From Saccoglossus kowalevskii (Eukaryota > Hemichordata > Enteropneusta > Harrimaniidae): a stretch of DNA of 33,678 nt. A program made the translations under genes and the position numbers. The notes beneath the pieces are model-generated. The model was not told the DNA's origin. It did not search any database and worked only from the letters and a program-made list of their open reading frames with translations. The DNA is taken from assembly GCF_000003605.2 (NCBI RefSeq), contig NW_003135348.1, positions 172,579 to 206,256 on the forward strand. Direction: 5' to 3'. Of this stretch, positions 4,481-28,435 are shown in pieces. Each line of letters starts with the position of its first letter. The stretch's first letter is position 1.

Positions 4481-4538
4481 CTTATCAAGCTTGCCTTCCA
4501 GTTCACAAATAGATTGTTCTGATTGTTCCAAGGAAGCC
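4481..4538 (-). CDS. ACAP: ACAP exon 2 (BAR domain continuation)
   Basis: 58 bases read leftward after acceptor TTTGTAG. The first G completes the Arg codon split across intron 1, then 19 codons give ASLEQSEQSICELEGKLDK, then donor GTAAGT. Known ACAP proteins read RA-x-(E)-E-x-E-x-x-(V/I)-x-E-(L/I)-E-x-KLDK at this place, so both phase and content agree. The exon ends in phase 0. It is too short to be seen as an ORF and was found by following the gene from exon 1. Confidence 0.82.
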
Positions 4539-7500
4539 CTACAAATAGATAGATAGAAAAATGAATGAATTAATAATTAAATAAATAAATAAATAAATAA
4601 ACAAACAAATAAACAAACAAACTTAATAAAATAAAAACAAAAATTACACAGACAAGACCTAAATATATGAGACAGTACAGAAAAGTTTTACTTGTTCAAG
4701 GACAGTTACATTTTTGTGAATGTAATGATTTGAGGCTATGACATTTAGTTTAGTTATTTGCATAATGATATCAGTATTTTTAAGTGTATTTCAAAGTTTT
4801 TAAAAGTGAGTTTTAATCCTCTGTAAGGAGAAAGGATTGTAAAGATTTGAGGCTATGACGTTAAGTTTAGTTATTTGCATAATGGTATTGATACATTGTA
4901 TGGAACATCTTGTGAGTATTTAGACTCAGTTCCAGGTCTAGCAGTTGAGCAATAAACACCTTGGCTACAAGTGCTCCTCTCCAGTGTGTTATTCTCCTCT
5001 CGGATCTGGTGACCAATACTCACTTGGTTCACTCTACCTTGAGAAGTCTGTTCTCAGTTTACAGTGACATATTTGAATATGGTATTTAGCTCAAAAGAAG
5101 CATGTCACAAATAATGTACATTTTTTGTGCAAAATGTAGGAAATATTTGAAGATGTCTAGAATGGTCACAACCTTTATCGTGTTCCATACGAGTCCCATA
5201 GTGATATACAGCATGTGCAAAATACATGTACATTGTTGAAATAAAATTCAAGCTTTTCACCACGGAAATTTCACTTTTTCACCCAAATATTCTGCATTTT
5301 TTTAAAAAAAATTCTAGAAATGAACCAAATTTCAGAGCCAACAGACAAAATTTGAGTCAATTTTCAGTTTTTACTATTTTTGACTATTTTTGTCCCAATC
5401 TTCTGAAGAAAAGTGCAGAATATAAATTGAATTAATTTGTGATGAAAAGAGGGCACTGGTGGTGAAAAGGTTAAAGAACAATCTAACAATATTTAAGTCT
5501 GATCTCTAAGGCCAAATTTTTTCTATTCCTTGTTTCTCAAGTTTTTATAAGGCAATTTTTTTGAGGAGGGCAGAAAAAAATTAAAATTTTTTTTTTTCCC
5601 CCCATTAGATTTGTGTGATTCTCAAAGAATTGTAAGTGAGATCATTGGTCGAAGAGAAGAAATGAAATAAAATTTTATTTTATTCCATGTATAACCTTGT
5701 TTCTCATCTGTGCGAGACTTCGGTATTTTGATCATGATAATCCAACGAAAATGCAACTTGGGTTTGTTATGTGAAAAAAAATAATGAAGATAAAAATAAG
5801 TTTTTTTCAACAATTTCTTGCACTTACAAGTCGGCGGGCGCGAGAAATTACGCTGAAATAAAATTTTATTTTTATTTCATTTTCGGCTCCTGTTCATTCG
5901 CGGGTTCGCGAAACAAGGGATAATAAAAGTCTGGCCTAAACACAAAGAGTTACAATGTACATTGTATTAAACAAAAGACTACCACAAGAGTCAATCCATG
6001 CTGGACACAGAGACAGACATTTTTCACTATCTGGAAACAATTGATGCACCAAACATGCAAAAACTTAACTCCATTCACACTTTCTCACTCGCTGTCAAAT
6101 TAAAGCACTGGATTTGAAATTTATTACCATCCAAAATAAATAAAATTCCCACCATCTTGAAGGTCACTCAAAGGGATGTGTTTACGTAATCAATCAGTCA
6201 AATATAGAACTAGTAATGATGATGAGGCATGGGGAAATTTTGTTATACATGTCATGTGAGGTCAAGAAAAAACAAGTCCAACATTCCACTAGCATAATGT
6301 TCAATCTAATTAATCAGTCTGTGCACTTTCTACAATAGCTTAATTCTATCTCTACAGTGTTACACAAGTTTCTCTGCTGTATTGTTGTCATTAGGGATGG
6401 ACCATTCAAAATTCAGGGGGGCTCTCATTAAAGTTTAAACATTGAATAAACCAACTCCCGAGGAAAAATAGACCCCCACAATGCACTATGAAATTACAGT
6501 AACTTTAATAGTGAAAACAATATTAATCATCACACTCCATCTTCAACTACCCCCCTCTCCCCCAAATCAGAACACCTCAGTACCAGTATAATTAAATGTA
6601 CTGGTATCACTGATTTACATTGTAATAAAATTAACCCGTTGAGCACTGAATTCCCCCCCCCCTCAAAATGCGGTAAACTTGTTCACAATTTCAGTAATTT
6701 TCACTGTACTCAAAATTAATTTTGGACTCAAGAGACAAAATGTGACTCTGCTTCTAGTTTTTGATAAAAAAAAAAAAGTTTAAAATTTCATCAGAATGAT
6801 GCTCTTTCGCAGATGGTATTTGAAGTTGATTTCTGCACTCAGAGAGAGGGTTAAAAAACATTGCAAACATTCATAATAACACTATGGGTGGAGAAAAACT
6901 CATTACATATAAAGTCAACATAGTGTCCAGTAACATGTGTATATAACCCAGAGCAATGCTTGTAGATATGCAGTGAGTGATGTGTCCCATAGCATACATA
7001 TAAATAGTATTTCAATATAGACTACCTGTACTTTAACACGTTTATAGTTTAAAAATAATTAATAATTAAATCCTTTTTGAATTTCCTCATTTTTTCATAT
7101 ACATGTACGTATGTGTATATATTATTGATTTCAGAATTCAATTATTTTGTTTTGTACTAAAACATAATTTTTTCCTGGTTTCATGAAATTCTGATCAGCA
7201 AGCAATGTTGTAGATTAAATGTAGGTTAACACAATTAACTATTTAGAAAATAGGCAGAACCAGACAGGTGATCAAAATATTAAAACAGAAAACAGAATGG
7301 AGAGCAGGGAAGACAATTTCCGCAATTACCAGTCTCAGGTGAAATAAACCTGTTCAGGACCGATGGACAGACCAAAATATTGAACCCTTGTAATTGACAA
7401 TGCCAGTATTACAATAGTAATTACTGAAGTATGAAACTAAGTAATATTATTCATCACATCTAGGACTATACCGGTAATTATTTTTTTTCTCATTTCCAGG

Positions 7501-10500
7501 CAATTTTTCAGAAAACCCTACTTTCCGCCAGAACTGAAATGGGTACAACCTTTTTTGTTGTAGTTTGTTCAATGCATGCATGATCTGAAATTTAGTTAAT
7601 TGCATTTTAAAGTAAAATTGACTTTCATATCTATCGAAAAATACATGGGTTTACAGTAATATATTTAAGAAATATTTTTCCAAAGTTGTTGTACATGTAT
7701 GTGAGAGAACAAGCTCACATTGTCTATTTGAATAAACTTGTCATTACGTAAGTATTAAAATGTAAATTTAAGAGGCAAATTTTCGTTACCTTGGATATTT
7801 TGTGTTAAAAATCACACAATTTTTTAAAAGTGAAAATTTCTCTACTGTTCTATTAATGGAGTGTCTGCAAAATTTGAAACAAATTTTGACAATACATCAC
7901 CAAATCAAAGACATTTTTAAGCAGCGAAAATTAAACAGTTTACTGTTTACACTCTTACATAGCAAATATGGTATATCAAGCAAAGTTAAAAAACATATTT
8001 AATATCCAAAATTTGAGAATGATTAACTGATTATTATTAATTAGGATTTGTAGAATATACAGTGTGAATTACTGTATTTCTTCTATTAAAAAATGCATCT
8101 CCAATAGAAGTGTATACTATTTGTATTTACTCGGTTTTTCATATGCATAACCCTGTATATTCCATTGTTTTCAGAGTTCATGACTTATTTTGATCTTAGA
8201 CACACAGACAAAAGTGGAATTGAGAAGAAAACGTCGATTTAAAGTCAAGAATCCAACCAATAAAAACAATATAAAGTAATGTGTGACGCAGACAGTTTCA
8301 AACTCATCTGTAAATTCCAAATCACATCTGATTCTCTTCTGTTTTCCACTCTTCTCCATTTCATTTTGTAAATGGAATGTCAATTGAGAAGAGACCTAAA
8401 ATAGAATACTCAGTCGATAGGTGATTTTCTGCCACTGCTATTACCGTGTGAACTGCACAGGCCAAACGTCTCCACAAAAATGCAACAATTTGATTTTGAA
8501 TTCGAATTTTTTTTTTTATAGCTCAATGTCGAAATGTTGATCTTTAACTTTTTTACGACCAGACTTTCTCAACCAAATTTTTCTGATAGTTTTTCTTATA
8601 TTCTTCAATATTTCTCCAAAACTTTAATTTTGAAGCCAACAGACAAAATTTATGTCAATATTTAGTTTTTACTAAACAAATTTGTCTATTTTTGTCCCAA
8701 TCTTTTGAAAGAAAGGGCAGACTATAAATAGGACTATTTTGTGAGTTTGTTTTGTGATGAAAAACAGGAACTGGTGGTGAAAAGGTTAAGAGGGGAATAT
8801 TGCGTTAAGATACCCTAACTTTAAAAAGCATTGGCCATCATTAAATGAGTTTAGCACATCAATAAAAATGAAAATACCCCCCACAAATACTTTAGCATTT
8901 GTTGAATCTCATCATACTCTACTGGAGGGTCAATGATCCCACATAATGTTTAGACAACACTACAATGTTATGACCTTAATAGTCTGTCCTGTTTTTACGT
9001 CCGATTTCATGCATAACACAGGATCTCATGGTGAATGGGAAATGGTCTATAAAAATACAGACATTCAAGTAACTAGAATCCTGTTGGATTACAATCAGCT
9101 GAAACAACCAACTCATGTCTCTCTTTAGCATTTAAATATGCAAGATACATTCCTGCTTTTCGCTGCTTGTGAGATTTTTAGTTTGATATCAGGTTAGAAG
9201 TTCATCGAAAGGTTCAGGACACTAAAAAGGACGGACATTTTCTCTGCAGTGCTGAAGATGCGGGTAATCCAGTTCAATGCTAGGGATTTAACGTAAGTCT
9301 GTGCTAGGTACACAAGACAAGATTAATACAATAATTTACAATTCTTTAATAAAATTATCGTATTAGCTTTTTTAATAGCACATGTGTTTACGTAATTTAC
9401 TAAATAACAGAGATGTCTATTGTCAAAATATGAGGTTATTATGAAGATACCTCAAAGTATGCACAAAGACAGTACAGCGAGATTATCGACCGTTGTGCAG
9501 CAGAGGTCTCTGCAACTACTGTCTGAGTACATACTTTGGGGTATCCTCACAATAACCTTATTATTATACATCTTTTCCATCCAAGGATACACCATGTGAT
9601 TGCCGACATCCAAAATGTTTAGAACAGAATCAGCAAACATCTTTGTGTGGAGTTTGGTCAAACCCTTATGGCAGCCATGTTTGTTTTTATTATTATAGGA
9701 CGCTTATGCCTGTAATCATTCCATATTTGGAATTCACATTTCCTAATATGGTAGGGTGAAAATACCCCGTAAAAAAATGCAAAATTATGGCACCCTGTAA
9801 CTTATGGCGTTACAGTGACAGATGTATAATAATAAGTAATATTTAAATAATCCAGTACACAATAAAACAATTGTTTATTTACATGTCCTTATACTGGAGA
9901 TGCACTCATCTATAATTGGGCTAAATATATTCAGTGTGAATAAATGAACCTCTGTATTTATAAATAAACCAATTTGCAACTACTATAATACTGTGAAATA
10001 CTTTATTTTAACTGGAATTAATTTTCACTGAAATAACTTTTGGGGTGTTTTGTGCGGATTTTATTTTCACTGATTTTTGACAAGTTGAATGTAAAATATA
10101 GGAAAAAAGTAAATTCACTAGATTTTATTTTCACTGTATCATTTCTTCAGCGAAAATTAATTCCAAGCGAAAATAAAGTATTCTACAGTATAAGCCCAAA
10201 TTGATGTTTTGCATATTTTTTTCCAAATTTCTATCAGCTGGTTTATTCAGGAAAAGAAAAAGTTGACTTTGATATTCAAGGTGTAAAGTTTGCATATGGT
10301 TTGTGTACTTCATTTATAATTGTATATTGTCACATCCCAAGTGACCTTACCCTCTGATGCACTATGAATCACATCAATTTAAAAGAGAACTCCAGTGAAG
10401 TTCATTCAGAACCCCTATAGATGTCAGCTGTTGAGACCACTTACATTAATGCCCATTTGATTATTTTCTCATTAGAGATTGATTTGTTGACATTGACCAA

Positions 10501-13500
10501 CAAATGACATTGATTATTTATTTTTAGGTCTTAAACTTCAGCATTGCCAGGGCAACCATTTTCAAACCAAAAAATTGATAGAAGTGCCTTGGTGTATAAA
10601 GTATTTGTATAGTATGGAAGGAAATCTGCATTTTCAAAGGGACCAATGCAAACTTTTCAGGCAAGGAGGCAAATTACCATCAGGTCTTGTTATTGTTGTT
10701 GTAGAAATATGGTTTTAATTTGTCCACATCCATTGTGTTACAGGTACTACGGTAAATACTTTGTTGGCCATTTTTCAACAAATTTCACAAATAAAACTGT
10801 ATACCAGCATTTGTTTCCAGATTTAAAGAAAAAAAATACCAAGAAAAACTATGTGCAAATGAAGATTTGCCTGGACTAACACACTTGTTTCAAAACTGAA
10901 ACCGAATTACAATCAGCTGTTATTGAAGCTATATCTTATAACGCATATTATATACGATACAGTGAATAAAATATTCTGAATCTTTGTTCTAATTAAACGA
11001 ATACAAATATCTATACAAATGTTCTGTCAATATCCAGTAAGAGGTTTTAATTTCACACATGACAAATTTCTGTGAATTTTGTGAAATAATTGCAATGTTT
11101 TATAGCAGTGAAAATTCCACTGGAGTCGCAGTGACTTTCTTGAAATTTAATCGTAGTCAATTTTTCTGTACTTTTATCTTATATATTTCTTAATATTTCT
11201 GGAAATAAACCTTAATTTTCAAGCCAACAGGCAAAATTTGAGTCAATTTTCAGCTTTTACTAACAACAGGACTTGGCATTAAGTTGGCACCCATTTTCAA
11301 GGCTAAATTTGATAAAATCATCGAGTAATACAAGAAATATTGAAGGGCACCAAGGTAAATTTCTTTAGCACCAAGGTAAATTTCTTTGGCACCAAGGTAA
11401 ATTTCTTTGGCACCAAGGTAAATTTATTTGGCACCAAGGTAAATTTATTTGGCATCAAGGTAAATTTATTTGGCATCAAGGTAAATTTATTTGGCATCAA
11501 GGTAAATTTATTTGGCACCAAGGTAAATTTATTTGGCACCAAGGTAAATTTATTTGGCATCAAGGGAAATTTATTTGGCATCAAGGGAAATTTATTTGGC
11601 ATCAAGGTAAACTTATTTGGCATCAAGGTAAACTTATTTGGCACCAAGGTCAATTTATTTGGCACCAAGGTCAATTTATTTGGCACCAAGGTAAATTTAT
11701 TTGGCACCAAGGTAAACTTATTTGGCACCAAGGTAAACTTATTTGGCACCAAGGTAAATTTATTTGGCACCAAGGTAAAGTTATTTGGCACCAAGGTAAA
11801 CTTATTTTGCATCAAGGTAAACTTATTTGGCACCAAGGTAAATTTATTTGGCACCAAGGTAAATTTATTTGGCACCAAGGTCAATTTATTTGGCATGAAG
11901 GTAAATTTATTTGGCACCAAGGTAAATTTATTTGGCACCAAGGTAAAGTTATTTGGCACCAAGGTAAACTTATTTTGCATCAAGGTAAACTTATTTGGCA
12001 CCAAGGTAAATTTATTTGGCACCAAGGTAAATTTATTTGGCACCAAGGTAAATTTATTTGGCACCAAGGTCAATTTATTTGGCATGAAGGTAAATTTATT
12101 TGGCACCAAGGTAAATTTATTTGGCACCAAGGTAAATTTATTTGGCATCAAGGTAATCGCTGTGAAATTCAAGCCCTACAACTGTACATGCAAATAACAT
12201 AATTTGATGATATGAAATTTTAAGACTAGCTAATAAGTGCATGGATGTAAACTAAATATGCAGTCGGTTGTTTTTTTTAATGTCTGTCTTTCTTCGTTTA
12301 ATTAAACACAGTCAGGCACATGCATTTTTTGGTTTGTATGAATTTCATATGCTCTGAATATCGTCTAATTATCATTTCAATTTCTAGATTTTATAGCATT
12401 CATGTATAAAAGTGTTCACATCCAAGAAACTCACGAAATTTTGCTCTTAGGAAATCAATGCGATTTAGAGTATGTATACATATATACAGCTGTCACAGTA
12501 TCCCTTTAATATGTTAACATTGTTTCATCATTTTGTAATATTGAATACTGAATGCACATCTATATCCTCATTAGGAAATGGAAATGATTAAGTAAGCATT
12601 CTTTCCATGATAATGGGCAAGTTACAAAAATATTGCAAGAAAGTTCAACTACTGTAAAATACCTAATTTTTACTTGTAATTTATTTTTGCTATTTGCACT
12701 GGAGGGATGATTATACTTTTTTTATATTACATGTATATACCTTTTTGCCTATGTTTTACATTCAACTTGTCAAAAATCAGTGAAATTAAACTCTATATGA
12801 AACACCCAAAAAGTCTCTTCAGGGAAAATTAATTCCAGCTAAAATAAAGTATTTCACAGTATTTTTTACCACCCGAGAAAAAAGACAGTTTTAGACTTCA
12901 TCCATCGACAGTTATGGATAGAAAATTGCACAATAATATGGTTATTCAGAGCTGGGAGTTGAGCAGACACTCATTTTCAAATGCCAATATTTATAAACAA
13001 TATAGCATATTTATGCATATTGGAATAATATGAGAATTATCAAAGGCAGCTGCCTTCAATGACTCTGTAAAGTTCAAGTCCTGGTCATTTCAAAGATACT
13101 ACAAAGCATTCATTTCACTAAGCGATATGTGGTCGTATTGACCTCAGTATGTGTCAGTTGATACCGTCTTCAAGTATACAAATACATTATGATGTCCTTG
13201 TAATAACCTTATACATTGTAATATTAAACCTTTCACTGCCAGATATTTTTCCCGCCCAGAATTAAGTGCACATATTTTTACATTTTGTGAATTTGTCACT
13301 AAATTTTATCAATATTTTGGTCCATTCAGAGAGTTTTAGATATTGCTTTTAGTTTTTGACCAAAAAGTTTGTAAGTTCTTACCAACATTTCACGTGGAGA
13401 GGGACAGACAGTTGTTGCTGGTGGCAAAAGTTGACAATAATGCTCAAAATGTTAAAAAGCACTTAGTATAGAAACTCCTGATATTTTGTTCAGCAAAATG

Positions 13501-16067
13501 TCAAATTAAACACGAAGTATTTTTAATTCCACAAGAAACAAATTTTCAAGTCATGAAAACCATGAAATTTTGTACCAGTACGTTACATAGGACAAACAAA
13601 AATAAGAAGTCCAGATTTTGTGTCCAAGGAAACAATGATTTTGTAATTTCTCCGTAGTGTTAAGCACTATTCTTGAGACCAAATGAATTGACAACAGACT
13701 AAAATATGGTTTGGGTATCAGAAGTTATTCCTCAGGCTTTCAAATAGCCTGTGATAGGAAATAACTTCAGGAAATTCCTGTGTCAATGTGTGTTAGCATT
13801 GATGGTCATTGATGGCATTGTTCAACCTTTGGTCTCTATTGTTATATCTTCCTTTTATTGGTCATTGTGTGTATATTTACCCTAGATTTAATCTAATAAA
13901 TCAGTGCCTTTGTGACTGGTCAAGTTCTCTATAATATTATTAAACGTAATCTCCACTAAACAAATATACTAGTAGGTATCAATAGAAGATAAAAACAATA
14001 CTGTAGAATACTTTATTTTCACTTGGAATTAATTTGTATAAGCTGACTATCTGAAGAATGACTTGGCACAGTCAGCTGGAAAGGCTGCATGTAGCACATA
14101 TGATCGTGTCATGTACACATGTCCTTGCTAGCTGACTATGGGATTTGTGACATTGTAATTTATGCACACAATAACTCAGAAGGCATATAGATGTATACAA
14201 GACGTAGACCAATGAGTGATCTTGTTTGTAAGTGCTGGTAATGATCAGAGGAATTTGATGCAGGTGCAAGTGTCTCAGAAAATATCATCATATTTGCAAT
14301 TCCAATAGAAACGCAAATAAACCAAAAATGATGGATATTGTAAATTATATTATTGACCATAAAATTCGGCCATTTACAAGAGCATGCTTTTAATACATTA
14401 AATGGTATATTGTGTTATAGCATTTAGAAAGATGAGGGTTGAACTTATTGTAAACAAATGCAATGAAGATTACACATGAATGTAAAAAATTAACATGATT
14501 ATTAATAAGCAATCATGCACAGTCTGAATACCACATTCATATTTCAAATAGGTACCCTTACTAATGAGAAACACAATCTAGGATTGCAGAAGTTAGTGAA
14601 ACTGAACCCTGACCAAACCATAACACATTAGAGGCAATAAGATACATGTATTTATATTGAAACGAACACTAATAGTTTTCCCGATGGGAATGAAGATGTC
14701 ATATAAACAGACAACTGTAACCATGTTCTCACTGGAGAACTCAATTCAAATCAAGATAGAGTTAATCATCTAAGTTTGTGTTGGGATTAATAATGCCATG
14801 TTCACACCAGGAAGGAGACCCAGTCGGCATATTTCAAAATCACGTTCTCATCTGTCATGTGCTGAAGTAACATAATGTCCTGACAATGGTGACATTCTAA
14901 GACATGAAGTAGAAGAGATATTTTCATGAATATGACATTGTTTTGGAAGGTGACAAATATTAATGTGAAATTATTTAATTATTACAGCAATTCCTTTCAG
15001 TGCAGATCAAGTTCACTAGTGAGAATGCAGCTTGTGAAAATATTTTTTAATCATCTATGCATTCAAAAGTAAACACTTCAAACTAAGTGTGTAAATTGAA
15101 TTTGTTTGCATAGACATTAGTAGAATAATTTGCAATGTGAAAAAAATTGTTATACATACGGAAAATCACTATAGTAATTAATAAGCTAACAATATGCCAC
15201 ACTATTTGAAGAGGGTTGTTTGTATTAAATGAATTAGGAACCTTACTCCTTAAGGAAGGATGTAGATAACACACTTTTAACAGCAATTTCTTGAAATGTT
15301 GCCAAGTTATTCTTTGTGACTGCCTGGGTATACTGAAGAAGAGTTTGACAACAGTATAAAAATGGACACCAGATTCGAGCATACTGTAATACTATGATGG
15401 AAATTCATTATTACCATGGAAACAAGTTCTGGTATCCCAGCACTTTATCGATGGACCTTTTCATTTAGCAAAATATCAAGAATTTCTAGTGGTTTTTAAT
15501 TTTCCTCTTTATTAATAAACATGAACCAGGTTTGTAGGTACATGTACTCTACATGGTTAAAATAATCCGGCATATCCCGCTAACTACCATGGTCACACAC
15601 AGTCCGGCAACGCCCCCTAAGTGACTTTCGATTACACATTGATGACTCATAGGAATGAACTCATTGTGCCATTCTTATTTTAATTTATGTCCTTTGTTGA
15701 ACGCTAGAACTGTCCGATTTGAAAGAACCAAGAAAACACACAAGCGAGTGATTATAAAGTTGAAGTAATGATGGTGTACAATTCTGCAACAGGGTGAAAA
15801 CACATGAATCTGTAATCCAGGTATTAAGCGAAGAATAATTAATTTAATTGACCCTAATTTGAACGCAAAGGGTGATTGGGAAGCCGCCACACACTGTCTG
15901 GAATTGTAAAAGTTATTTTCTAAACCGCAACAGAAGCAGACACATATCCATGAAAAAGATAACCAGCGTCCAATGTTGATAGCCCGTATACTATAGTACG
16001 CTTGGCTGGCTTACCTGAAACGGGGACTGTCCTTCAGACACTCGCCGAAGTCAATCTTCGGTTTCAT
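4481..16067 (-). CDS. ACAP: ACAP-family Arf-GAP, first two coding exons (partial gene)
   Basis: Spliced gene read on the minus strand. Exon 1 (16067-16015) and exon 2 (4538-4481) join in phase to give 37 residues starting MKPKIDFGECLKDSPRFR and ending CELEGKLDK. This is the start of the BAR domain of ACAP proteins (centaurin-beta), whose members begin with a near-identical acidic stretch then ECxKDSPRFRA and LDK. Known family role: BAR-PH-ArfGAP-ankyrin proteins bind curved, phosphoinositide-rich membrane and stimulate GTP hydrolysis on Arf6 at the plasma membrane and recycling endosomes. Both introns have GT donors, and intron 1 is about 11.5 kb. The next exon should encode LVKLC-like sequence; I did not find it in 1-4480, so PH, ArfGAP and ankyrin parts lie to the left. 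An invertebrate probably has a single ACAP, so I do not choose between vertebrate ACAP1, 2 and 3. The gene is head to head with the PUSL1-like gene. Confidence 0.85.
4562..4622. repeat. AAAT/AAAC simple repeat
   Basis: Run of AAAT units turning into AAAC units, about 60 bp, just upstream (in gene direction) of the ACAP exon 2 acceptor. Confidence 0.85.
4718..4887. repeat. Tandem duplication, 117-bp spacing
   Basis: The stretch starting GATTTGAGGCTATGAC and containing TTTAGTTATTTGCATAAT occurs twice, at about 4718-4770 and 4835-4887, with few differences. Confidence 0.7.
5251..5470. mobile_element. TTAA-type MITE, family B copy
   Basis: Left end AGCTTTTCACCACGG, right end GGTGGTGAAAAGG followed by TTAA at 5471. 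Shares the CAACAGACAAAATTTGAGTC and TTTTTGTCCCAATCTTCTG blocks with the other copies. Confidence 0.6.
5510..5936. mobile_element. Harbinger-like MITE (TAA target duplication)
   Basis: 427 bp between direct TAA repeats at 5507-5509 and 5937-5939. Ends are inverted: GGCCAAATTTTTTCTATTCC on the left and GGCCAGACTTTTATTATCCC on the right read inward, both continuing TTGTTTC. GG-started TIRs with a TWA duplication are typical of PIF/Harbinger. Interior contains AAAATTTT palindromes; no transposase. Confidence 0.65.
6635..6850. mobile_element. Diverged TTAA-flanked MITE
   Basis: Between TTAA at 6631-6634 and 6851-6854; ends CCCGTTGAGCACTGA and, inverted, CCCTCTCTCTGAGTGCA. Interior resembles family B (CAAGAGACAAAATGTGACTC, AGTTTTTGATAAAA) but diverged. 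Confidence 0.5.
8548..8785. mobile_element. TTAA-flanked MITE, family B
   Basis: 238 bp between TTAA sites. Ends are related inverted repeats of the form (C)CTTTT-CACCACCAG. Interior landmarks: GAAGCCAACAGACAAAATTT, GTTTTTACTAAA, CTATTTTTGTCCCAATCTT. Other copies: 2330-2458 with 3797-3895 (split), 5251-5470, 6635-6850 (diverged), 11115-11265 (truncated), 13228-13430 (diverged), 25388-25534. All copies share one orientation. Confidence 0.6.
9433..9820 (-). mobile_element. Fold-back element, copy 1
   Basis: About 390 bp, inverted relative to 30918-31273. One end is a long hairpin (9434-9557; arms GGTTATTATGAAGATACCTC... and its inverse GGGGTATCCTCACAATAACC). Further shared blocks are the ACTCCACACAAAG, CATGTTTGTTTTTATTATTA (here on plus) and TACGGGGTATTTTC stretches and the far end GTAACGCCATAAGTTACAG. 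Confidence 0.6.
9991..10188. mobile_element. TA-flanked MITE, family A
   Basis: 198 bp between TA dinucleotides. Ends are inverted: CTGTGAAATACTTTATTTT on the left, CTGTAGAATACTTTATTTTC on the right read inward, then (A/G)CTGGAATTAATTTTC. TA target and short non-coding body suggest a Tc1/mariner-type MITE. Other copies or halves: 310-388, 12652-12859, 14003-14038, about 17266-17411, 18370-18469, 23415-23495, 30116-30298. Confidence 0.65.
11115..11265. mobile_element. Truncated family B MITE
   Basis: Contains the TTCTTAATATTTCTGGAAAT and AAGCCAACAGGCAAAATTTG blocks; stops at TTTTACTAAC without the right half. Lies just before the minisatellite. Confidence 0.5.
11348..12155. repeat. 21-bp minisatellite, about 38 copies
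   Basis: Unit AAGGTAAATTTATTTGGCACC with single-base variants (CACC/CATC, AAATTT/AAACTT/CAATTT/AAAGTT, one GGCATGAAG type). Because the unit is a multiple of 3 and lacks stops in several frames, it produces ORFs of 284-285 codons on both strands (TKVNLFG and VPNKFTL repeats). A higher-order duplication is visible: an eight-unit block containing the rare AAAGTT, TTTTGCAT and GGCATGAAG variants recurs next to itself with one unit added. It lies in ACAP intron 1 and I judge it non-coding. Confidence 0.9.
12652..12859. mobile_element. TA-flanked MITE, family A copy
   Basis: Between TA at 12650-12651 and 12860-12861; ends CTGTAAAATACC... and ...AAGTATTTCACAG; contains the GGAAAATTAATTCCAGCT block of the family. 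Confidence 0.6.
13228..13430. mobile_element. Diverged family B MITE
   Basis: Starts after TTAA with ACCTTTCACTGCCAGA and ends GTTGCTGGTGGCAAAAG, an imperfect inverted match. Interior AGTTTTTGACCAAAAAGTTT fits the family. Confidence 0.45.
13721..13768. repeat. Hairpin
   Basis: GAAGTTATTCCT...CAGGCT and AGCCTG...AGGAAATAACTTC are inverted around a 7-base loop, with an asymmetric 4-base interruption (TGAT). Confidence 0.6.
16015..16067 (-). CDS. ACAP: ACAP exon 1 (start codon, BAR helix 1)
   Basis: 53 coding bases read leftward from ATG at 16067-16065. They give MKPKIDFGECLKDSPRF plus two bases (AG), followed by a consensus donor GTAAGC. The ECLKDSPRF block is close to invariant in ACAP proteins and sits at the very N-terminus there too, which fixes this ATG as the start. 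Two ATGs occur further upstream in the presumed 5' UTR (near 16217 and 16197), each opening a short frame. Confidence 0.85.
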
Positions 16068-16593
16068 TATTCAGTTGTCAGTAGCTCGTATACGTTAAGT
16101 TGAACTCACTTCCCAACATTGGTCTCGGAATATATTCGGAAATGTTCAAGAACCGGCGCTTGTTGATGAAATATGAGAGATGTTGCGGAATACCATCACT
16201 GCAGCACGGACGCCATGATGAATCTAATACGACGACTTGTCACTTCCGGTTCCTGGACGATACTATTGACACGTGACTGATGAAACGAGGGTAGAACTTG
16301 TTTATCTCTGAGAAGCACCTAAGTAACATTGGGACGTTGTTCAACTATATACATAAATATGATAAATTCTACAACAATTAATGTAATATAACTTGATATA
16401 TAAGATGAGTGCTCTTGGTATCACTAATAATAATAATAATAATATGGCCGGAGACACGTTTAACTGGCGGGACACCCCTACTTGAAATTTATAGCAAAGT
16501 TCAGAATTCTCCAGCACTTGGCGACTGCTGCCCATAGATTCTAATGCACGCTTCCATCAAAATAATAATAATGGTGATTAGTAGTTATTCACC
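16068..16593. promoter_or_regulatory. Bidirectional promoter region between ACAP and PUSL1
   Basis: 527 bp separate the two divergent start codons, so both 5' UTRs and promoters must lie here. It is locally less AT-rich than the surroundings. Candidate housekeeping-promoter motifs are visible: an ETS-type CACTTCCGG at 16241-16249 (CCGGAAGTG on minus), an E-box CACGTG at 16270-16275, and a YY1-like GCCAT at 16212-16216. No TATA box is obvious at a position that would serve either gene. AAT triplet repeats occur at 16427-16444 and 16559-16573. Transcription start sites cannot be placed from sequence alone. Confidence 0.6.
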
Positions 16594-16640
16594 ATGTGTC
16601 GATATTTGTTATATATTTCGTATTTAGGAACAAATTTTAG
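16594..16640 (+). CDS. PUSL1: PUSL1 exon 1
   Basis: ATG at 16594 with C-rich context, an in-frame TAG at 16582 just upstream, and donor GTGAGT at 16641. Encodes MCRYLLYISYLGTNF plus two bases. The RYL-Y-x-x-Y-x-GT-x-F pattern is the first beta strand of TruA-like enzymes, close to the N-terminus of vertebrate PUSL1. Only 47 coding bases, so it is invisible as an ORF. Confidence 0.82.
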
Positions 16641-19600
16641 GTGAGTACTTTCCCAAAATTGGACAAGGATAATCTCCAGAGCCAGTTCAGGTCAGGGGCA
16701 GAATGGGACCAGGCTGAGCACCGGTCCACAAGTGAGCGGGCCACTGAGGGCACTTTCATAATATTTTGAGAGTGGCAAATACTTTAATAGTTTGTTTCTG
16801 TTCGGAGAGTGTCAGCAATATCTCGGACCCCTAGCTACCCCTTTCCAGACATCCGAAGTGTGGAAATGGATACCTTTTTTCAGACAATTTTAGAAAAATG
16901 TGTTCACTTTCTTTGACTCTATGTTGAGGTACTGTCAGAATCCATTTTTGCTGATTGCAGACCCATCTCAAAACACTTCTGCTCAAAAAAAAAGGATCTC
17001 ATACATTCCCCTGTACTAGAGATATGCGCTTCTAATAAACATGTGGATTAATTTTGCCTGGAATTATTAAAATATTGACTGAAAATTAAAGAATGAAGAA
17101 GAAATGTCAAACGAAGAAAGATCTTAATTGCACCAATTATCTTATATTCTCATCTTGTGAATTCTTGATAATGTTTATGTACTGTCTAATTATCACTGTA
17201 TTTTCAGAGGAGTAGTTCAGACTAATTCCACGTCACCAACTGTGCAGAGGGTAATTGAGGTGAGTGCTGTAAACCATTTATTTTTCACTGCTAGAAATTT
17301 TCAAAATTTGATGATTTCATGGCATATTCGTGAAAACAAAATTTCATAAAAATCAGTGATTCACAAAATTTATGAATATTTTTCTCTCAAAATTAAAGCT
17401 ATATTTACGGTATATTACAGCAAATCTCAGAAGTATTGGGGCAGCCAATTTGCAAACTCACTAGCTAGTTGGCTATAGACTGTTTTGGTTTTGACTAAAC
17501 GGTTGGCTTTCGAATCTCGCTGGCGCTGGCTTGTGATCGCGTCCACTCTTGGCGAGTCTATATTGCATATCAAACTTTCACACTCAAACGATCCGTTGGG
17601 GTAACATTAAGCCAACCGCTGGAAAGATCGACCTCATTCATCGTTTTTGTGTGGACACGAAGAGCATAGAACACTTTCCTTGGTATATTGAAAGCGAAAT
17701 CGCCATGATNNNNNNNNNNNNNNNNNNNNNNNNNNNNNNNNNNNNNNNNNNNNNNNNNNNNNNNNNNNNNNNNNNNNNNNNNNNNNNNNNNNNNNNNNNN
17801 NNNNNNNNNNNNNNNNNNNNNNNNNNNNNNNNNNNNNNNNNNNNNNNNNNNNNNNNNNNNNNNNNNNNNNNNNNNNNNNNNNNNNNNNNNNNNNNNNNNN
17901 NNNNNNNNAAAGCGAAATCGCCATCCAACTGTAAGACCGTCGCTGATTAGCTCCTAAAGTATGAGGATCGTCCCCTACTGTTACATAGATTCGCCTTAGA
18001 TGGGCGTGACCGCAAGATGACGCCAGCGAGATTCGAAAGCCAACCGTTTAGTCAAAACCAAAGCAGTTAGCCAATTCGCGAGCGAGTTTGCAAATTGGCT
18101 GCCCCAATACTTCTGAGACTTGCTGTAAGATACAACAGATTATTGAATTGCCTGTTTTGTTCAAGTTCCATGTAGGATTATAATAGACCAAGTCTAGTGT
18201 AAATGGCTTCCATCAAATACTACTCAAATTATTTATGTCAGCTTATACATAACCTAAATTGAATGTATGTATGAATATTATCGTTATTTAATTTCACTGT
18301 TTTGATATTTTGCCCATAGTAATAAATGGGTAAAACCTTGGAACTACATAGTGCATAGTTCATGGTAAAACATATTATTTTTGCTATTTTCTCATCAAAA
18401 ATTCCATACAAAACACCAAAAAAAACTTTTTAGCGAAAATTAATTCAAGCTTAAAAAAGTATTTTACAGTAGTACACAACATTTAAATTTAGTCTCATAC
18501 AGCCACATACAATTTTGTTTTGTTTTTTCATGAAAATCTCTCTTTCTGGCAGTCTGAACAAGCTGACCCAACTTGATTTCATTTTGATCTTGGGCCGGGT
18601 TCCTACAAAGTTACCACAGTGGTCCTGTTAGAGGGCACACTGCCCGTCCCAGCAGTGACTAGTGTCTTAAGGAAATCCAGGCACAGAAAAATAATATTAG
18701 AGCAAATAGTATAGACTATATTACATATATATAGTCATTATCCTTCTACAGGTGTTGAGGGACGATGATATAGTAGATAATATTTGGTAATCGTTGACGG
18801 TATAACTATATTCAAAATAGCTAGACATTTCAAGCAATGGCTCAATAGCATAGGATAACATTTTAAATGGGAGTCTATATAAGAATAGAAAAAGTGGAAA
18901 TTTTACATCCATTTCTGAGACTGGATTAAGTGTAAATGACTATGTTCTTGCAAGCACAGAGTTTTTGGGAAAGAGTACTGATTTTACAGTGGGATCACGT
19001 ATTGAATCAGACCATATGCCAATAGAATTTATAGTAGCTTTTGAGACTGGGGTTGTTAATGGCAACAAAGAAGTACCGGTACATCTTGCTATTCAACAAC
19101 ACAATATACCCAGGAAACTTAGATGGGATCAGGACAAAAAACAGATGTATCATGATAATTTCTATTCAGAATCCACCAATCATTTACGCCACTGTTTCTA
19201 TGAAAATATTGAATAGGGTGATGTGGCTAGCGCCACAGTTTCCTTAAATGACATAATGTACTCCTGTTGTAATCACATTAAAGTTGATGTAAACAATAAA
19301 ACGAAAAGGAAAAGTGATAACCCATGGTTTGACAGGGAATGTGGTAAAATAAAAAAAAACGAAGTCTGCCAGGCCCTTAATCATTTTAGAAACTGTAGAA
19401 CACAACCAAAATTGGAACTCTATTTAGAACTGAAAAAAAGATACAAAAGTTTGATTAAGGAGAAAAAGTTAGCTTATCAAAGCAAGATGCGTGATAATTT
19501 GGTAAACCTTGCTACCCAACATAACGCTAGGCAATTTTGGCGAAACTTTAGTGATAAAACAGAGAGTATATCAAATAATATTACACAAGATGAGTGGTTT

Positions 19601-22600
19601 GATTATTTTAGCAAGTTATTTAATCCAGAAATTACAACAGATGTGAGTATGGCAGACTTCCATTCATTGGTCCATGAATATGTTAATGAATTGAATTTTG
19701 ATGACTTGGATGATATTAACTTGGACTGTAGTGATTTAAACTGTCATATATCCATGGCAGAAATAAGAAAACATTTAACAAAATTGAAAAAAATTAAACG
19801 CCTGGTCAGGATGGAATACCGGCAGAATTTTGGAAACACGCCCCACAGGAGATATAAAATATATTACATATTTTATTCAATAATGTTTTGGACAGGGGTT
19901 TATTTCCCATGGAATGGGCTTTAGGACTAATAACTCCCATTTATAAGAAAGGGTTTAAAGGTGAACCGGGAAATTATCATAGTATTATGCTATTAAATAA
20001 TATAAGTAAATTGTACTCAAGTATTTTGGCAGATAGACTTTCGGCATGGATTGATAATTATTGTAAAATAGTTGAAGTACAGAATGGCTTTCGGAAGGGA
20101 AGGGGTACCATGGATAATGATTTATTCTGTCTACACTTATTGAAAAATATGTATTTCATTTAAAAAGCTGTTTTTACTGTGCATTTATTGACTACAAAAA
20201 AGTTTTTGACCGTGTTCATCATTGTTCAATAAATTAGCCAAGGCTGGGATAAAAGGAAAAGTCTTATCATCCGTTTTTTCAATGTGTACCTACACATGTT
20301 CAAGCTGCTGTCAAAACACGAATTTGGGTCACAGAATTTTTCAAAATAAACGTAGGTTTGCAACAAGGGTCAGTTATATCACCACTATTATTCTGTTTTT
20401 ATGTTAACAATATTGAAAATGCACTTTCACAAGGGGTTGAGACTGTTGTATATTCCAATACTTTAAAAGTAATGTATTTACTTTATGCAGACGATCTCGC
20501 GCTTTTTAGCAGTTCTTCTATTGGTTTACAGCTTTTGTTAGATAGATTGGCTGATTATTGTAGTAGATGGAGATTGAATGTAAATCTGAATAAATCTAAA
20601 ATTATTGTATTTCGGAAGAGAGGGAGATTAAAACAAGTTGAGAAATGGTTTTGGAAAGGAGGAGAAATAGAAGTTGTCTCAAGATACAATTATCTTGGTG
20701 TAATTTTCTGTTGTTCGGGTATCTGGTACCAAGCACAAAAACATATTTCAGATCAGGCAAGGAAAGCTTTATATTCCCTACAAAGTATGCTTTATAAACT
20801 TGGGGGATTACAACCAAGTATTGCATTTAAAGTTCTTGATTGTAAAATTCTCCCAGTTCTCTTGTATGGCAGCGCAATTTAGAGGAAAAATTTTGTAAAT
20901 TTAGTCTGGGGGTAAATTTGAAAACCACAAATTGTGCTGTCAGGGGGGAGCTGGGTAGACACCAAATACATACATTTATTAACATTGAAATAATTCGTTT
21001 TTGGTTGAAATGTATAAAAGTAGACACTCCATAAACTGTTAGAGATTGTTATCAATACCAGTATACTCGGGCAAACCAGGGGTTAGATTGCTGGGCACTG
21101 TACGTCAAAAACTTGTTAAATAAATATGGTTTTGGTGAAGTATGGGTAAAACAACAGGTGGCTAACTATGACCTCTTTCTATATGAATTTAAACAACGAA
21201 GTTTTGATATTTCTGTGCAAGAATGGTTTACTAGGGTTGTAGGGTATCCCAAAATGCGTATATAATGTAAATTTAAATGTAATATGAGGGGAGGCAAGGG
21301 GGGTAGCTGGTACGGTTTTACGGGAAATAAAAAGTGCTTTTTACAGTTTTCAGTGTTAACAAATGGAACATTGAATGGTCCAAAGAGCTCTCCAACTGAA
21401 TGCTCCACCATTACTGTGCCGTGTGTAGAGACGCATGCGTATATTACCCTCGTAATGCTCTTCATTCGGTTAGAGGGCCTTTTACGTCTTGGACATTCAA
21501 TTTTATAGTGAATTGTGTCATCTAGTCGTTTTACAGTTTCTGAAATGTAATTTCCCTGGATTTTTTTTTATGATTTTTTTATTTGGATGTAAATTCTTGT
21601 ACGTACCGGGAAAAATGACACATTTTTACAGTATACGGAAAAAATATTTGATTTATTACGTTGTACGTCTAAGCCTGTGATTACAGAATTACGGAATTTA
21701 TTTTTTCTATTTACGTTGTACGAACAAAAAAATATTGCAATTACGTTGAACGAAAATAACCCTTGCCCCCCCCCTCTAATATGACTAGTGAAAAGTATTT
21801 TTCAAATGCTACTTATAAAAGGGCACTGACTTGTTTTAGAATTTTTACACATGACCTAAATATTGAGATTGGGAGAGGGACGGGGGTTCCACTGGAACTG
21901 AGGTTTTGTCCATTTTGTTGTAATCAAATTGAAAATGAATATCACATGCTTCTAATTAGCCCACAATATGCCAATCTTAGGCTAAAATTTATTCAACACT
22001 TTTATTTTTCTCCAGCAACAGAATACAAATTTATTTAGTTAATTAATTCAAGTAATTCAAATACATTAGTGAATCTAGGCAAGTTTATTTTCTTTTCATT
22101 ACAGAAATGTCGAAAACTTATGGAATGACTGGGGAGGGTTTATTTATTTATTTTCAAGAATATTTAATATTGTACATGTAAGGCCCATGGCCTATAGTAC
22201 TGAATAAAGATATACATATCCAGGATAAAATTTTAAAACATGACATAGAACATGAGAACATGCATACTATAAAATAGAATTACTGAAATATTTCACAAAA
22301 GAACATGTTTAGGCGCACTAGGTGGTGAGCGCAGGGAATGAGTTGAAGAGTTTGTTAATTCACTCACAGTTCCTCTATCAGGAACTGTGATTCACTTAGT
22401 GTTTCTTCAGTTCCAAGGTGGAACATACGGTAGTATTCTCCTCAACACACATGATTTCACTTTATATTTGTGGTGTGTTGTTCGTACGTTAGTTACTTCT
22501 GTGCTATCGATAAAAAAACATTGCTCGAAACATCTAGCTATTTTAAATAGTTACTTAGGACCAACTTTATCAAATATTATCTACTATATATCATATTTAT

Positions 22601-25600
22601 AGGCCCAAGCAGCATTTATTTTTTTACCACTTTTAGTATAAAACAATATGTACCACATTTTCCCTTTCTTATGTGATGGCTTAGATATTTATCACTTACT
22701 TTTGTAGGGAGCACTGCATACACTCAAACCACAGGAAGCGGCAAAATTATATTTTTCAAGTCGTACTGATGCAGGTGTTCACGCATTGAATAACACAGCA
22801 CATGTTGATTTCGTAAGACGAAATAACCAACAACCGTTCAGTGGCGAGGTACTCAAAACAATTTTGAATAACAAGCTACTCATAGCTCAGCAGGATATAC
22901 GGTTGGTATAATTTTTGTTGTTACGTACTCTCGCTACTATGCAAGTTTGAATACATGTACGCAGAGATACATTACGTGGGGTTTGCAACTACGGTGACAT
23001 AATACCAAGACTCCGTTTCAAACTCGCTCTCGCATAAGCGTTCCAACTCAGAAAAATGCGAATGCGCATGCCCGAGGTAACTAGGATACTGGGACGTCCA
23101 GGTGGATCAAAATAGGTGCTCACAATATGACGGATTACGATAACTATATTTTCTGTACATTTTCCATGTATTACATTTTTTCACTATGAATGTGGTAATA
23201 CATGTTTTATTACAAACCGCCTATGTCATGTCAGAAGGTCTCGTCTATGAGATGAGACTTGAATGGAATCTTGACATGATGTCACCATACAGTACTATGC
23301 GCGTTGCAAACCCCAAGTAATGTACCTCTGATGTACATTAACATTTTGTGTAAATAATGCATTTGACCCATGTGCGTGAGTCATATAACCCTTTCTAGAA
23401 GCAAAATTCTACTGAATACTGTAAATTTTGTCTCCATAAATGACATAAAATCGCGAAAATTTCTATCAGTGAAAATAAAATGCTTTACATTATGTTGCTA
23501 TGTGCAGAATGGGACCCATATTGAATAAAATGTTATTACGCTTACAGTGCCACTATAAAATTATTAATTGTTATCAAACTGGCTATGCTGCCGACATTGT
23601 GCGCTAAATTTGCAGCTTGTATAATATGCAAATGTCTCACATGGTCGGTGAGTAAAGCTTTTAAAAAACATGTATATTAAAAGCGGGGATGTCATCACCT
23701 ACGCATGCGACAGAGGGCCATAGTGTGTCGTTGTTTACAAATAAGCGTCTACCCGGGAGCCTTTGTGTTTTTAGCGTGCCTTGTTATCGTCTCTTAGGAC
23801 TCAATTCCCGCATGTGCGCAGGTGACGAATTCCTCTGCTTTAACTTATGAAACTGAACATCTTGTTGAAATTATTATACCAATAACTTAATCAAAAACTA
23901 AAATTTTAATATCTTAGGTTATTCGTTTCAAATGTTGATGTCAATCATTAAAAATACTGAAACATAAATAACCGTCTACTAACATTGTTGACTCTAGGTG
24001 GCGCTGTTTGCAAATATGCATTACAGACTTTATACACATACATTTACATTCAACAATGATGATTTTTATGTGCTGACAATTTATAACTAACAATAATTTA
24101 ATCTTGATGTTGCCAAATAATACTTGTTAACATAAATTGCATTTATTGGTGATAGAAACACTTCAAACATAAACTTGTAGAATGCCATAAAAATTGAACG
24201 TTCCATAGTAAACAGATGAACTAACTGGCACACAGTTGAGCACGGACTAAACTAGAACAGAACTACAGTTTTACTTTTAAAAAAGGAAATGGAACATTAC
24301 GGCGTTTTTCATGCAGACGGAGGTCAACCAATCAGTGACTGCGTACTAAGTTAATAATGGAATATCAGTCAACACCTATGGCTTATGGTTTCAAGGATAT
24401 AATAAACGTGATTCATAATTCATGTATATTTAATAAATTATTTTATTAATAATTTATTATTTAATAAAAAGCTGATACTATTAAATCTGTATTAATATTG
24501 ATTTACCATTTTATTTGGAACGTTATAAATGTGGATTTGATTCTGTCATTGTCTATTTCTTGATATAATTTTTTTGCAGAATCAATGATGTTAAAAAAGT
24601 TCCTGATGAGTTCCATGCTCGATTTCAAGCCAAGGGTAGAACATACGTATACAGGATAGCATCAAATTGGAATTGTGCTCTCAATCATATACCATTATTT
24701 GAAAATCACAGATGCTGGATGGTCAGTTACAGGTATAGTTCTTATTGAATATTAATTTTATAATATCGGTAGTGTCCATTTTTGGTTGTTGAACTGCGAA
24801 TCTTGGCTGCAGTTCAGTCATTCGGCTCTCTAAGATACTGATAACTCATTCACCACTGTGTACATGTAACTGCTTAGTGATGTTCAGTCATGTACAATTA
24901 ACAGCAAATACAAATATCATTTATTAAAGTAGAATGCTTCAAACTACATTTTCCTGACAATACAACCTTATTTGGAGCATGAACAAATAAATATTTCTGA
25001 ACATTAAAATATTATAAATATGTATAAATTAATGAATGGATTTTGTCTGTTGTAACATTATTGTAGAATTACTGATATCAGTGGAGGAAATAAAGAAACC
25101 AAATGCAAAAAAAACATTGAGGTGAATCTAGTTTTATTTTTTGTGTCTATAAAAAGAAACATCAAGGTAGACAGACAGCATCTAAATATAGACATTTTAT
25201 GTATGATGGTTGAATTGCTAGAGAAAAACATAATAATAATAATTATTGTTTTAGCAAAAGTCGAAAGCCATATGGATTTCTTTTCTCCATACCAAACAAA
25301 ATTGTCCAGTGTTAATGCTAAGATGCAGTTATAGGCATGTTTCAACAATGATTTCAGTATACAATTGTACACACTCTCTTACCTGGATAACAGGAAACAG
25401 ACAAAATTTCACTTTTTAGTTTTCACTAAAAAAGTTTGGCTATTTTTGTCCCAATATTCTGAAGGAAAGTGCAGACTATAAACAGGACTATTTTGTGAAT
25501 TTGTAATGAAAAGATGGAACTGGTGGTGAAAAGGTTAAAGCAAAGATATCTGTATCTTTTTTAGATTAGACATCGAAAAGATGAAACAGGCGTGTGAAGT

Positions 25601-25799
25601 ATTTATTGGTACTCATGATTTCGCCGCATTTCGTAGCAAAAATAACAAAAATGTTCATAAATCAACTGTGAGAACTATAGATAGTATAAACATTAGGAAA
25701 TCTCATGGAATATTACAACATCTATCACCCTGCGAGACAGATGCACGAATAGAATACTATGAAATTGAATTCAAAGCCAAGTCATTTCTGTACAAACAG
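16594..25799 (+). CDS. PUSL1: tRNA pseudouridine synthase A-like 1 (PUSL1), exons 1-5, C-terminus not found
   Basis: Five exons (16594-16640, 17208-17259, 22708-22901, 24580-24732, 25565-25799) join in phase with no stop to give 227 residues. TruA-family landmarks occur in order: the N-terminal Y-x-G-T-x-F-x-G-V-Q-like strand and TVQRVIE helix (exons 1-2); the catalytic loop SSRTDAGVHAL with the nucleophilic Asp at about residue 54 (exon 3); FHARFQAKGRTYVYRI (exon 4); IGTHDFAAF and FKAKSFLYKQ (exon 5). The family isomerises uridine to pseudouridine in tRNA or other RNA; the PUSL1 branch is associated with mitochondria in vertebrates. The invertebrate protein lacks the final VRRM...HGL-type segment of about 60-75 residues. 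I searched 25800-33678 by eye and did not find it. The gene is divergent from ACAP. Similar human order supports PUSL1 rather than another TruA member. Confidence 0.9.
16641..17207 (+). other. PUSL1 intron 1
   Basis: 567-bp intron with donor GTGAGT and acceptor TTTTCAG. I recognise no repeat or gene in it. Bases 16670-16760 are relatively GC-rich. Confidence 0.65.
17208..17259 (+). CDS. PUSL1: PUSL1 exon 2
   Basis: Acceptor TTTTCAG ends at 17207 and donor GTGAG starts at 17260. The first base completes the Arg codon of exon 1, then 17 codons give GVVQTNSTSPTVQRVIE with its leading Gly. This matches the GVQ...TVQ-x-x-LE region of TruA proteins. It ends in phase 0. A MITE begins within about six bases of the donor. 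Confidence 0.82.
17266..17411. mobile_element. Diverged family A MITE at the PUSL1 exon 2 donor
   Basis: Begins CTGTAAACCATTTATTTTTCACTG immediately after the exon 2 donor GTGAG and ends TATTTACGGTA. Matches the 30116-30298 copy best (that copy starts CTATAAAACCATTTATTTTCACTG). Confidence 0.5.
17418..18125. mobile_element. Long-TIR element with TA target, interrupted by the assembly gap
   Basis: Ends CAGCAAATCTCAGAAGTATT and, inverted, CAGCAAGTCTCAGAAGTATT, flanked by TA at 17416-17417 and 18126-18127. The inverted repeats extend with good identity for about 110 bp and weakly to about 150 bp per side. CAG start and TA duplication suggest a Tc1/mariner-type non-autonomous element. The known sequence contains no transposase; 199 N lie inside (17710-17908). 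Confidence 0.6.
17710..17908. other. Assembly gap (199 N)
   Basis: Run of undetermined bases. The 16-base AAAGCGAAATCGCCAT occurs directly on both sides (about 17692-17707 and 17909-17924), so the gap may be artificial or sit in a tandem repeat. Frames running through the N run are not genes. Confidence 0.99.
18761..19213 (+). pseudogene. LINE endonuclease domain remnant
   Basis: One frame, with TAG/TAA stops before 18845 and at 19214, reads NILNGSLYKNRKSGNFTSIS, then SVNDYVLAS and SDHMPIEF. The SDH is the conserved catalytic-site motif of exo_endo_phos nucleases. The upstream nuclease motifs are missing. Confidence 0.7.
19223..20882 (+). pseudogene. LINE reverse transcriptase remnant
   Basis: Runs over three frames. 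Landmarks: PGQDGIPAEFW near 19803 (shifted frame), LGLITPIYKKG near 19922, GFRKGRGT near 20089, LQQGSVISPLLF near 20357, and the catalytic YADD at about 20483-20494 followed by LNKSK and YNYLGVIF. Frameshifts lie near 19800, 20163-20220 and 20340. Not able to make an intact enzyme. Confidence 0.8.
20883..22038 (+). pseudogene. LINE C-terminal region remnant, split by an insertion
   Basis: 20930-21280 reads CAVRGELGRH, then NKYGFGEVWV. After the insertion, 21778-22038 continues SEKYFSNATYKRAL, IEIGRG and RFCPFC...ENEYHMLL, as in CR1-like C-termini. In-frame stops are present near 20881, 21050 and 21265. Confidence 0.65.
21286..21776. mobile_element. 491-bp G-rich-ended TIR element inside the LINE
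   Basis: Flanked by direct TAATAT (21280-21285 and 21777-21782; the following GA also matches the element start, so the duplication could be read as 8 bp). Ends: GAGGGGAGGCAAGGGG and, inverted, GAGGGGGGGGGCAAGGG. The LINE protein reading is continuous across the site if one duplication and the element are ignored. Interior has repeated TTACGTTG(T/A)ACG and no transposase. Superfamily not assigned. Confidence 0.7.
22708..22901 (+). CDS. PUSL1: PUSL1 exon 3 (catalytic Asp)
   Basis: Acceptor TTTTGTAG ends at 22707. In phase 0 it encodes 64 codons plus two bases, starting GALHTLKPQEAAKLYF. It contains SSRTDAGVHALNNTAHVDF, the pseudouridine synthase catalytic signature whose Asp attacks uridine. 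The donor is taken as CG|GTTGGT at 22902, because only this phase lets exon 4 read on; the alternative GTATAA four bases later would put exon 4 into a stop. The chosen donor is a weak consensus. Confidence 0.9.
22962..23330. mobile_element. 369-bp CAG-ended TIR element (hAT-like)
   Basis: Ends CAGAGATACATTACGTGGGG and, inverted, CAGAGGTACATTACTTGGGG, both followed by TTTGCAAC. Flanks share ATGTAC (22955-22960 with one extra base, and 23331-23336). CAGRG ends suggest hAT but the duplication is shorter or less perfect than the usual 8 bp. Confidence 0.55.
23681..23839. mobile_element. 159-bp TTAA-flanked inverted-repeat element
   Basis: TTAA at 23677-23680 and 23840-23843. Imperfect inverted ends: AGCGGGGATGTCATCACCTACGC and AGCAGAGGAATTCGTCACCTGCGC. 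A single related end also occurs at about 3855-3893 (TCATCACCTGCGGATGCG inverted). Confidence 0.5.
24580..24732 (+). CDS. PUSL1: PUSL1 exon 4
   Basis: Acceptor TTTTTTTGCAG ends at 24579; donor AG|GTATAG starts at 24733. Reads INDVKKVPDEFHARFQ, then AKGRTYVYRIAS and LFENHRCWMV. The V-P-x-x-FHAR-x-x-A-x-x-RTY-x-YR pattern is the second diagnostic TruA block. It contributes RNA-binding and active-site residues in the family. Begins and ends in phase 2. Confidence 0.9.
24733..25564 (+). other. PUSL1 intron 4
   Basis: 832-bp intron. Its last part (25388-25534) is a copy of the TTAA-type MITE. The rest is AT-rich; the ORFs there on both strands (around 25058-25372) have no recognisable domain. Confidence 0.6.
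25388..25534. mobile_element. Family B MITE next to the PUSL1 exon 5 acceptor
   Basis: Holds GTTTGGCTATTTTTGTCCC, GGAAAGTGCAGACTATAAA and the right end GGTGGTGAAAAGG, followed by TTAA. The left end is missing or diverged. It ends 30 bp before exon 5. Confidence 0.6.
25565..25799 (+). CDS. PUSL1: PUSL1 exon 5
   Basis: Acceptor TCTTTTTTAG ends at 25564 and donor GTGAGT starts at 25800. Encodes RLDIEKMKQACEVFIGTHDF, then AAFRSKNN and, near the end, YEIEFKAKSFLYKQ. HDFxAF and the F-x-x-x-SFLY-x-Q stretch before V-R are conserved across TruA enzymes. Reading past the donor gives a stop at 25866 after 22 unrelated residues, supporting the splice. A TTAA-type MITE ends 30 bp before the exon. Confidence 0.9.
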
Positions 25800-28311: not shown

Positions 28312-28435
28312 TTTTAAGTACTTCCTTGTAGCAGTAATTAAGCCATGAATAAATTTATTTTTGTTTGTTTAATGGGAAATGTACTTGATAAATCAGGTTA
28401 TAAATTTAGCAAGTATCTTGAGTGTGTGGATAACA

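Follow-up and report, generated by a model that had tools for sequence, protein, structure and literature searches.

A head-to-head ACAP-PUSL1 gene pair in the acorn worm Saccoglossus kowalevskii that probably predates the divergence of acorn worms from vertebrates

Two genes, ACAP on the minus strand and PUSL1 on the plus strand, lie head to head in a 33,678-bp stretch of the genome of the acorn worm Saccoglossus kowalevskii (hereafter the window; C2729:172579-206256). Their features are collected in Table 1. The window was analyzed together with 100 kb on either side, giving a region of 233,678 bp that contains 12 N runs (~58 kb of N). Genome-wide searches were carried out on the 572.1-Mb assembly, consisting of 4830 contigs. 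Exon models were obtained by spliced alignment to human proteins, the ACAP exons being chained on ACAP2. Positions beyond the window are given in window coordinates, negative values lying to the left of the window.

Exon 1 of ACAP matched human ACAP2 at 78% over 18 aa in tblastn. Most of the remaining gene was traced on the same contig to at least -36344, and the gene extends over ~52 kb. Out of 35 chained exons 25 were retained; the ten set aside were short, lacked support or fell within the variable linker. The spliced alignment found neither the stop codon nor one of the early exons expected in the 233,678-bp region; this exon may be located in a 3.5-kb gap directly left of the window. ACAP was read almost whole, not fully. 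The joined model scored above the Pfam cut-offs for BAR_3, PH, ArfGap and Ank_2, in the order BAR, PH, ArfGAP, ankyrin, and contains CCDC...CIECSGTHR, which fits what we take to be the ArfGAP zinc-finger motif, CX2CX16CX2C plus the next arginine. The closest solved structure is named ACAP1. Identity to the human sequences was 417/768 for ACAP2 and 374/729 for ACAP3; since ACAP2 had served as the template for chaining the exons, these values give no ranking of the paralogues. Following a genome search with 51 matches listed, those located off C2729 were confined to the ankyrin part, except for two ArfGAP stretches on C1213 (42-50% identity). ACAP appears to be single-copy at the sensitivity of this search, in which 66 of 102 candidates were scored.

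The ACAP linker at -29204 to -29260 (minus strand) reads VSSDSGLGGSADVLVFGS. This stretch resembles part of human ACAP3 (weakly, E 0.41) and ACAP2 less so, and it is possible that it represents an ancestral motif retained by ACAP3. Two tandem repeats were observed in the gene: a 21-bp minisatellite in intron 1 (11346-12156; ~39 copies, 94% matches), with frames open on both strands, and a 157-bp repeat left of exon 2 (2618-3633), the copies of which are ~90-92% alike.

PUSL1 is complete to its stop codon, with six exons encoding 285 aa over ~30 kb. The protein matched Pfam PseudoU_synth_1 at 1.4e-34 and human PUSL1 with 192 bits (115/273 aligned residues identical). Among the 15 solved chains listed, the best score was 75.7 bits, for a bacterial-type TruA, and PUS1- and PUS3-type chains scored 20.5-31.3 bits. 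Judged from these alignments, the gene is nearer PUSL1 than TruA, PUS1 or PUS3. The aspartate of RTDAG, presumably the catalytic residue, is present in exon 3. All six matches found genome-wide were located on C2729 (7/7 candidates scored), and PUSL1 appears to be single-copy.

The introns of PUSL1 hold further sequences. Intron 2 contains a broken non-LTR retrotransposon (18854-20882), with reverse-transcriptase-like frames that were named by eye. The last intron (20.8 kb) harbors two tandem pentraxin/laminin-G-like genes at 28373-30035 and 41703-43707, both on the plus strand and thus on the same strand as PUSL1, with coiled-coil-like stretches recognized by eye.

Table 1. Exons, interval, sequence words and assembly gap at the ACAP-PUSL1 locus (window coordinates).
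Feature	Position	Strand	Remarks
ACAP exon 2	4538-4481	-	ASLEQSEQSICELEGKLDK; spliced alignment; acceptor TTGTAG, donor GTAAGTG
ACAP exon 1	16067-16015	-	MKPKIDFGECLKDSPRFR; start codon 16067-16065, in-frame stop upstream; donor GTAAGC
Candidate shared promoter interval	16068-16593		526 bp, no N; GC 0.386; CpG observed/expected 1.07
ETS/GABPA-type word (presumed)	16241-16249	-	CCGGAAGTG; only one in window; 0.05 expected there
E-box/USF-type word (presumed)	16270-16277	+	CACGTGAC; 1 found vs 0.014 expected in interval
PUSL1 exon 1	16594-16640	+	start codon at 16594; in-frame stop upstream
PUSL1 exon 2	17208-17259	+	GVVQTNSTSPTVQRVIE; spliced alignment; acceptor TTTCAG, donor GTGAGTG
Assembly gap	17710-17908		199 bp; sole gap in window; inside PUSL1 intron 2, outside both first-exon pairs
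PUSL1 exon 3	22708-22901	+	carries SSRTDAGVHA motif
PUSL1 exon 4	24580-24732	+	spliced alignment
PUSL1 exon 5	25565-25799	+	spliced alignment
PUSL1 exon 6	46581-46757	+	outside window, window coordinates

The first-pass annotation had placed ACAP exon 1 and PUSL1 exon 1 head to head with starts 527 bp apart, and this was confirmed by the exon models and splice sites; the limits that it had set, 4481 and 25799, proved to be exact exon ends. The two start codons are separated by 526 bp (527 bp from start to start). Because in-frame stops precede both of them, neither protein can start farther out in its own first exon. Measured between start codons, not transcription starts, the two genes are divergent with starts <1 kb apart, the limit used for divergent pairs in PMC2871058.

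The CpG content of the interval was compared with that of its surroundings. Observed/expected ratios were 0.17-0.58 in the ACAP intron (12000-15799) and 0.38-0.43 on the PUSL1 side (16500-17299). Tiles of 500 bp starting at 15701-16101 exceeded 1.0, and those starting at 16301 or later gave 0.37-0.58. Across the region, the value of the interval was equalled or exceeded in 100 of 646 segments of 526 bp. The CpG peak is asymmetric, lying more on the ACAP side than on the PUSL1 side, and is not rare; skewed and common as it is, it would mark at least an ACAP promoter. Two words, CCGGAAGTG and CACGTGAC, which we take to be of the ETS/GABPA type and the E-box/USF type, respectively, are located ~20 bp apart. 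Of 1000 resampled intervals, 0.8% attained the single ETS word; as 16 motifs were tried, this word is suggestive at most. TATA-like words were found 3 times, against 1.4 expected. Taken together, the short interval, the ACAP-skewed CpG peak and the single ETS and E-box words make a shared bidirectional promoter for ACAP and PUSL1 plausible. In human, ACAP3 and PUSL1 have been assigned the same indel within transcription-factor sites (PMC4509691), and one transcription-factor-occupied segment, called a candidate enhancer, is associated with both genes, its mouse counterpart being linked to Acap3 alone (PMC4333152). Both studies lean on ENCODE-type data and are thus not independent. Their observations would fit a promoter common to the two genes.

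The animal was placed using the mitochondrial contig of the assembly (C4830; 17,037 bp). Its gene order, with frames named by eye, is ATP6-COX3-G-ND3-R-...-ND4-H-S-ND5-CYTB, with COX1 inverted and ND2 ahead of ND1. In alignments with bovine COX1, CYTB and COX2, 3 of the 28 ATA codons stood opposite M and the other 25 opposite I, V or L, and AAA was paired with K in 7 of 8. In ten mitochondrial genes examined, AGG was unused and AGA occurred four times; the anticodon of the lysine tRNA is TTT. For S. kowalevskii, PMC3121625 describes ATA as Ile, AAA as Lys, AGG as missing, AGA as Ser and a tRNA-Lys with UUU; in its gene order COX1 is inverted and either ND1 or ND2 has been transposed. The features of the contig fit this published mitochondrion and place the animal in Hemichordata. 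With this code and gene order, an origin from a protostome, echinoderm, cephalochordate or vertebrate is unlikely.

The arrangement had been likened to that in human. ACAP3 and PUSL1 are presumably head to head in human 1p36.33. The other part of the likeness, adjacency of the two genes in vertebrates, is borne out by PMC10781636, in which the order ACAP3-PUSL1-LPAR6-INTS11-CPTP is described for coelacanth, axolotl and chicken, in part also for lizard, and the block is dated to the sarcopterygian ancestor. Vertebrates thus carry LPAR6, INTS11 and CPTP after PUSL1 (PMC10781636), whereas in the acorn worm INTS11 and a CPTP-family gene are located elsewhere. The ACAP-PUSL1 pair probably predates the divergence of acorn worms and vertebrates. 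As the animal is a hemichordate and hence a deuterostome, the comparison with human takes the pair back to the deuterostome ancestor, from which ambulacrarians and chordates descend; the early bilaterian date proposed in the first-pass annotation goes further than this comparison extends. PMC11175523 describes two chromosome-level hemichordate genomes with no apparent microsynteny between them and a heavily scrambled gene order. Given such scrambling, a junction common to acorn worm and vertebrates stands out. The junction would thereby date from the deuterostome ancestor and be far older than the sarcopterygian origin given for the larger block (PMC10781636).

It had also been proposed that the pair predates the duplication of ACAP, with ACAP3 keeping the old neighbor. 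The acorn worm has a single ACAP gene at the search sensitivity given above, whereas vertebrates have three. Since this one gene lies beside PUSL1, the pair most simply predates the ACAP1/2/3 split, which supports the proposal. In vertebrates, ACAP1 and ACAP2 presumably have neighbors other than PUSL1, and the divergent arrangement would have been lost there. The locus would offer a specific example, open to experiment, of an ancestral divergent pair that has lasted at just one vertebrate ACAP duplicate; it is a fresh example of a known phenomenon and no new kind of biology. In the passages of the literature that were searched, no account of an ACAP-PUSL1 pair in an invertebrate was found. ACAP3 and PUSL1 are unmentioned in the main texts of PMC8851819, PMC3815023 and PMC2871058 (the last with the terms ACAP, CENTB5 and PUSL1).

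Several explanations of the arrangement were weighed. That it is an artefact of assembly or consists of pseudogenes, a concern already raised in the first-pass annotation, is extremely unlikely. The region is rich in gaps, one of which is located in PUSL1 intron 2, but the first two exons of each gene fall within 17,709 gap-free bases (1-17709, zero N), against an assembly join; the reading frames are open, the introns are GT-AG and PUSL1 is whole to its stop, against pseudogenes. Both were rejected. That the two lineages arrived at this head-to-head layout independently, by chance, is only slightly less improbable. The comparison does involve just two lineages, but with 15,000-30,000 genes assumed, the chance that PUSL1 is the head-to-head 5' neighbor of ACAP is 1.7e-5 to 3.3e-5 across the whole genome and rises to 4e-4 to 8e-4 when the two are restricted to a single linkage group out of 24, so that the prior per pair is ~2e-5 to 8e-4.

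An ancestral pair may also have been kept by inertia, that is, never broken, with separate promoters that have no elements in common. We consider this rather unlikely, though far from negligible. At E 0.1, neither INTS11 nor UBE2J2 nor part of DVL was matched in the 233,678-bp region, where CSTF1 gave six matches, although with ~58 kb of N this absence is incomplete; a lone surviving pair is also expected from random breakage. The position of the CpG peak, mainly on the ACAP side, points the same way, as do the unrelated functions of the ACAP and PUSL1 proteins. Against inertia, the genes are spread out (ACAP over ~52 kb, PUSL1 over ~30 kb) and yet their starts are separated by 526 bp only; survival of the tightest junction amid changed surroundings is a better fit to constraint. 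With reasonable confidence we therefore favor an ancient divergent pair, inherited by this hemichordate from the deuterostome ancestor and kept through interleaved core promoter elements. In short, an Arf GTPase-activating protein (ACAP) and a TruA-type pseudouridine synthase (PUSL1) would be transcribed away from one 526-bp interval, an arrangement that would have been inherited from a deuterostome ancestor in which ACAP was one gene. If the core promoter elements of both genes are interleaved in this short interval, a break would damage one of the genes and the pair would persist; the two proteins would need no functional relation. Following duplication of ACAP in vertebrates, only the ACAP3 copy would have kept PUSL1 alongside, the divergent unit being retained at ACAP3 and lost at ACAP1 and ACAP2.

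Constraint of this kind may be compared with published sets of divergent genes. Using CAGE in amphioxus, 25% of neighbors were assigned to bidirectional promoters, and 372 putatively ancestral bidirectional promoters were described, 54.5% of which were lost in stem vertebrates (PMC6292497). The acorn worm pair is similar in that its members are close divergent neighbors; most of the chordate pairs were disentangled in vertebrates, and the chordate set is CAGE-based, whereas ACAP-PUSL1 is known here from DNA sequence. Similarly, it shares with the eukaryote-wide divergent pairs of PMC2871058 a short divergent interval kept over long times. In that older survey, short divergent pairs were enriched only in land vertebrates, not in non-vertebrate animals.

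Other genes of the human block were located elsewhere in the assembly. A DVL match was obtained on C2391. INTS11 was found on C3359 (402320-405097, plus strand), its best exon scoring 130 bits with INTS11 and 62 bits with CPSF3. The same contig carries a CPTP-family gene (388698-389195, minus strand; 106 bits, against 40 for GLTP). These two genes are divergent, with ~13 kb between the exons found, which do not include the first exon of either gene; another gene may lie in between. In human, INTS11 and CPTP are presumably neighboring and divergent as well. Against this likeness, a second CPTP-like gene, on C1607, scored higher (131 bits). The chance that any of three GLTP-family loci lies within 15 kb of INTS11 is ~1.6e-4. 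This suggests that two divergent pairs of old origin were joined in the vertebrate block or parted in the acorn worm. We tentatively propose, as a possibility somewhat short of even, that vertebrate ACAP3-PUSL1-INTS11-CPTP consists of two divergent pairs, each at least as old as the deuterostomes. If so, whole bidirectional units moved as modules, and the ACAP unit was disentangled at ACAP1 and ACAP2, not at ACAP3. Genes found near the acorn worm pair are CSTF1, a copine, an SCO1-type gene, MTHFR, a kringle gene and a DUF4606 gene, the last being located at L013:6961-7635 (plus strand), ~4 kb downstream of PUSL1.
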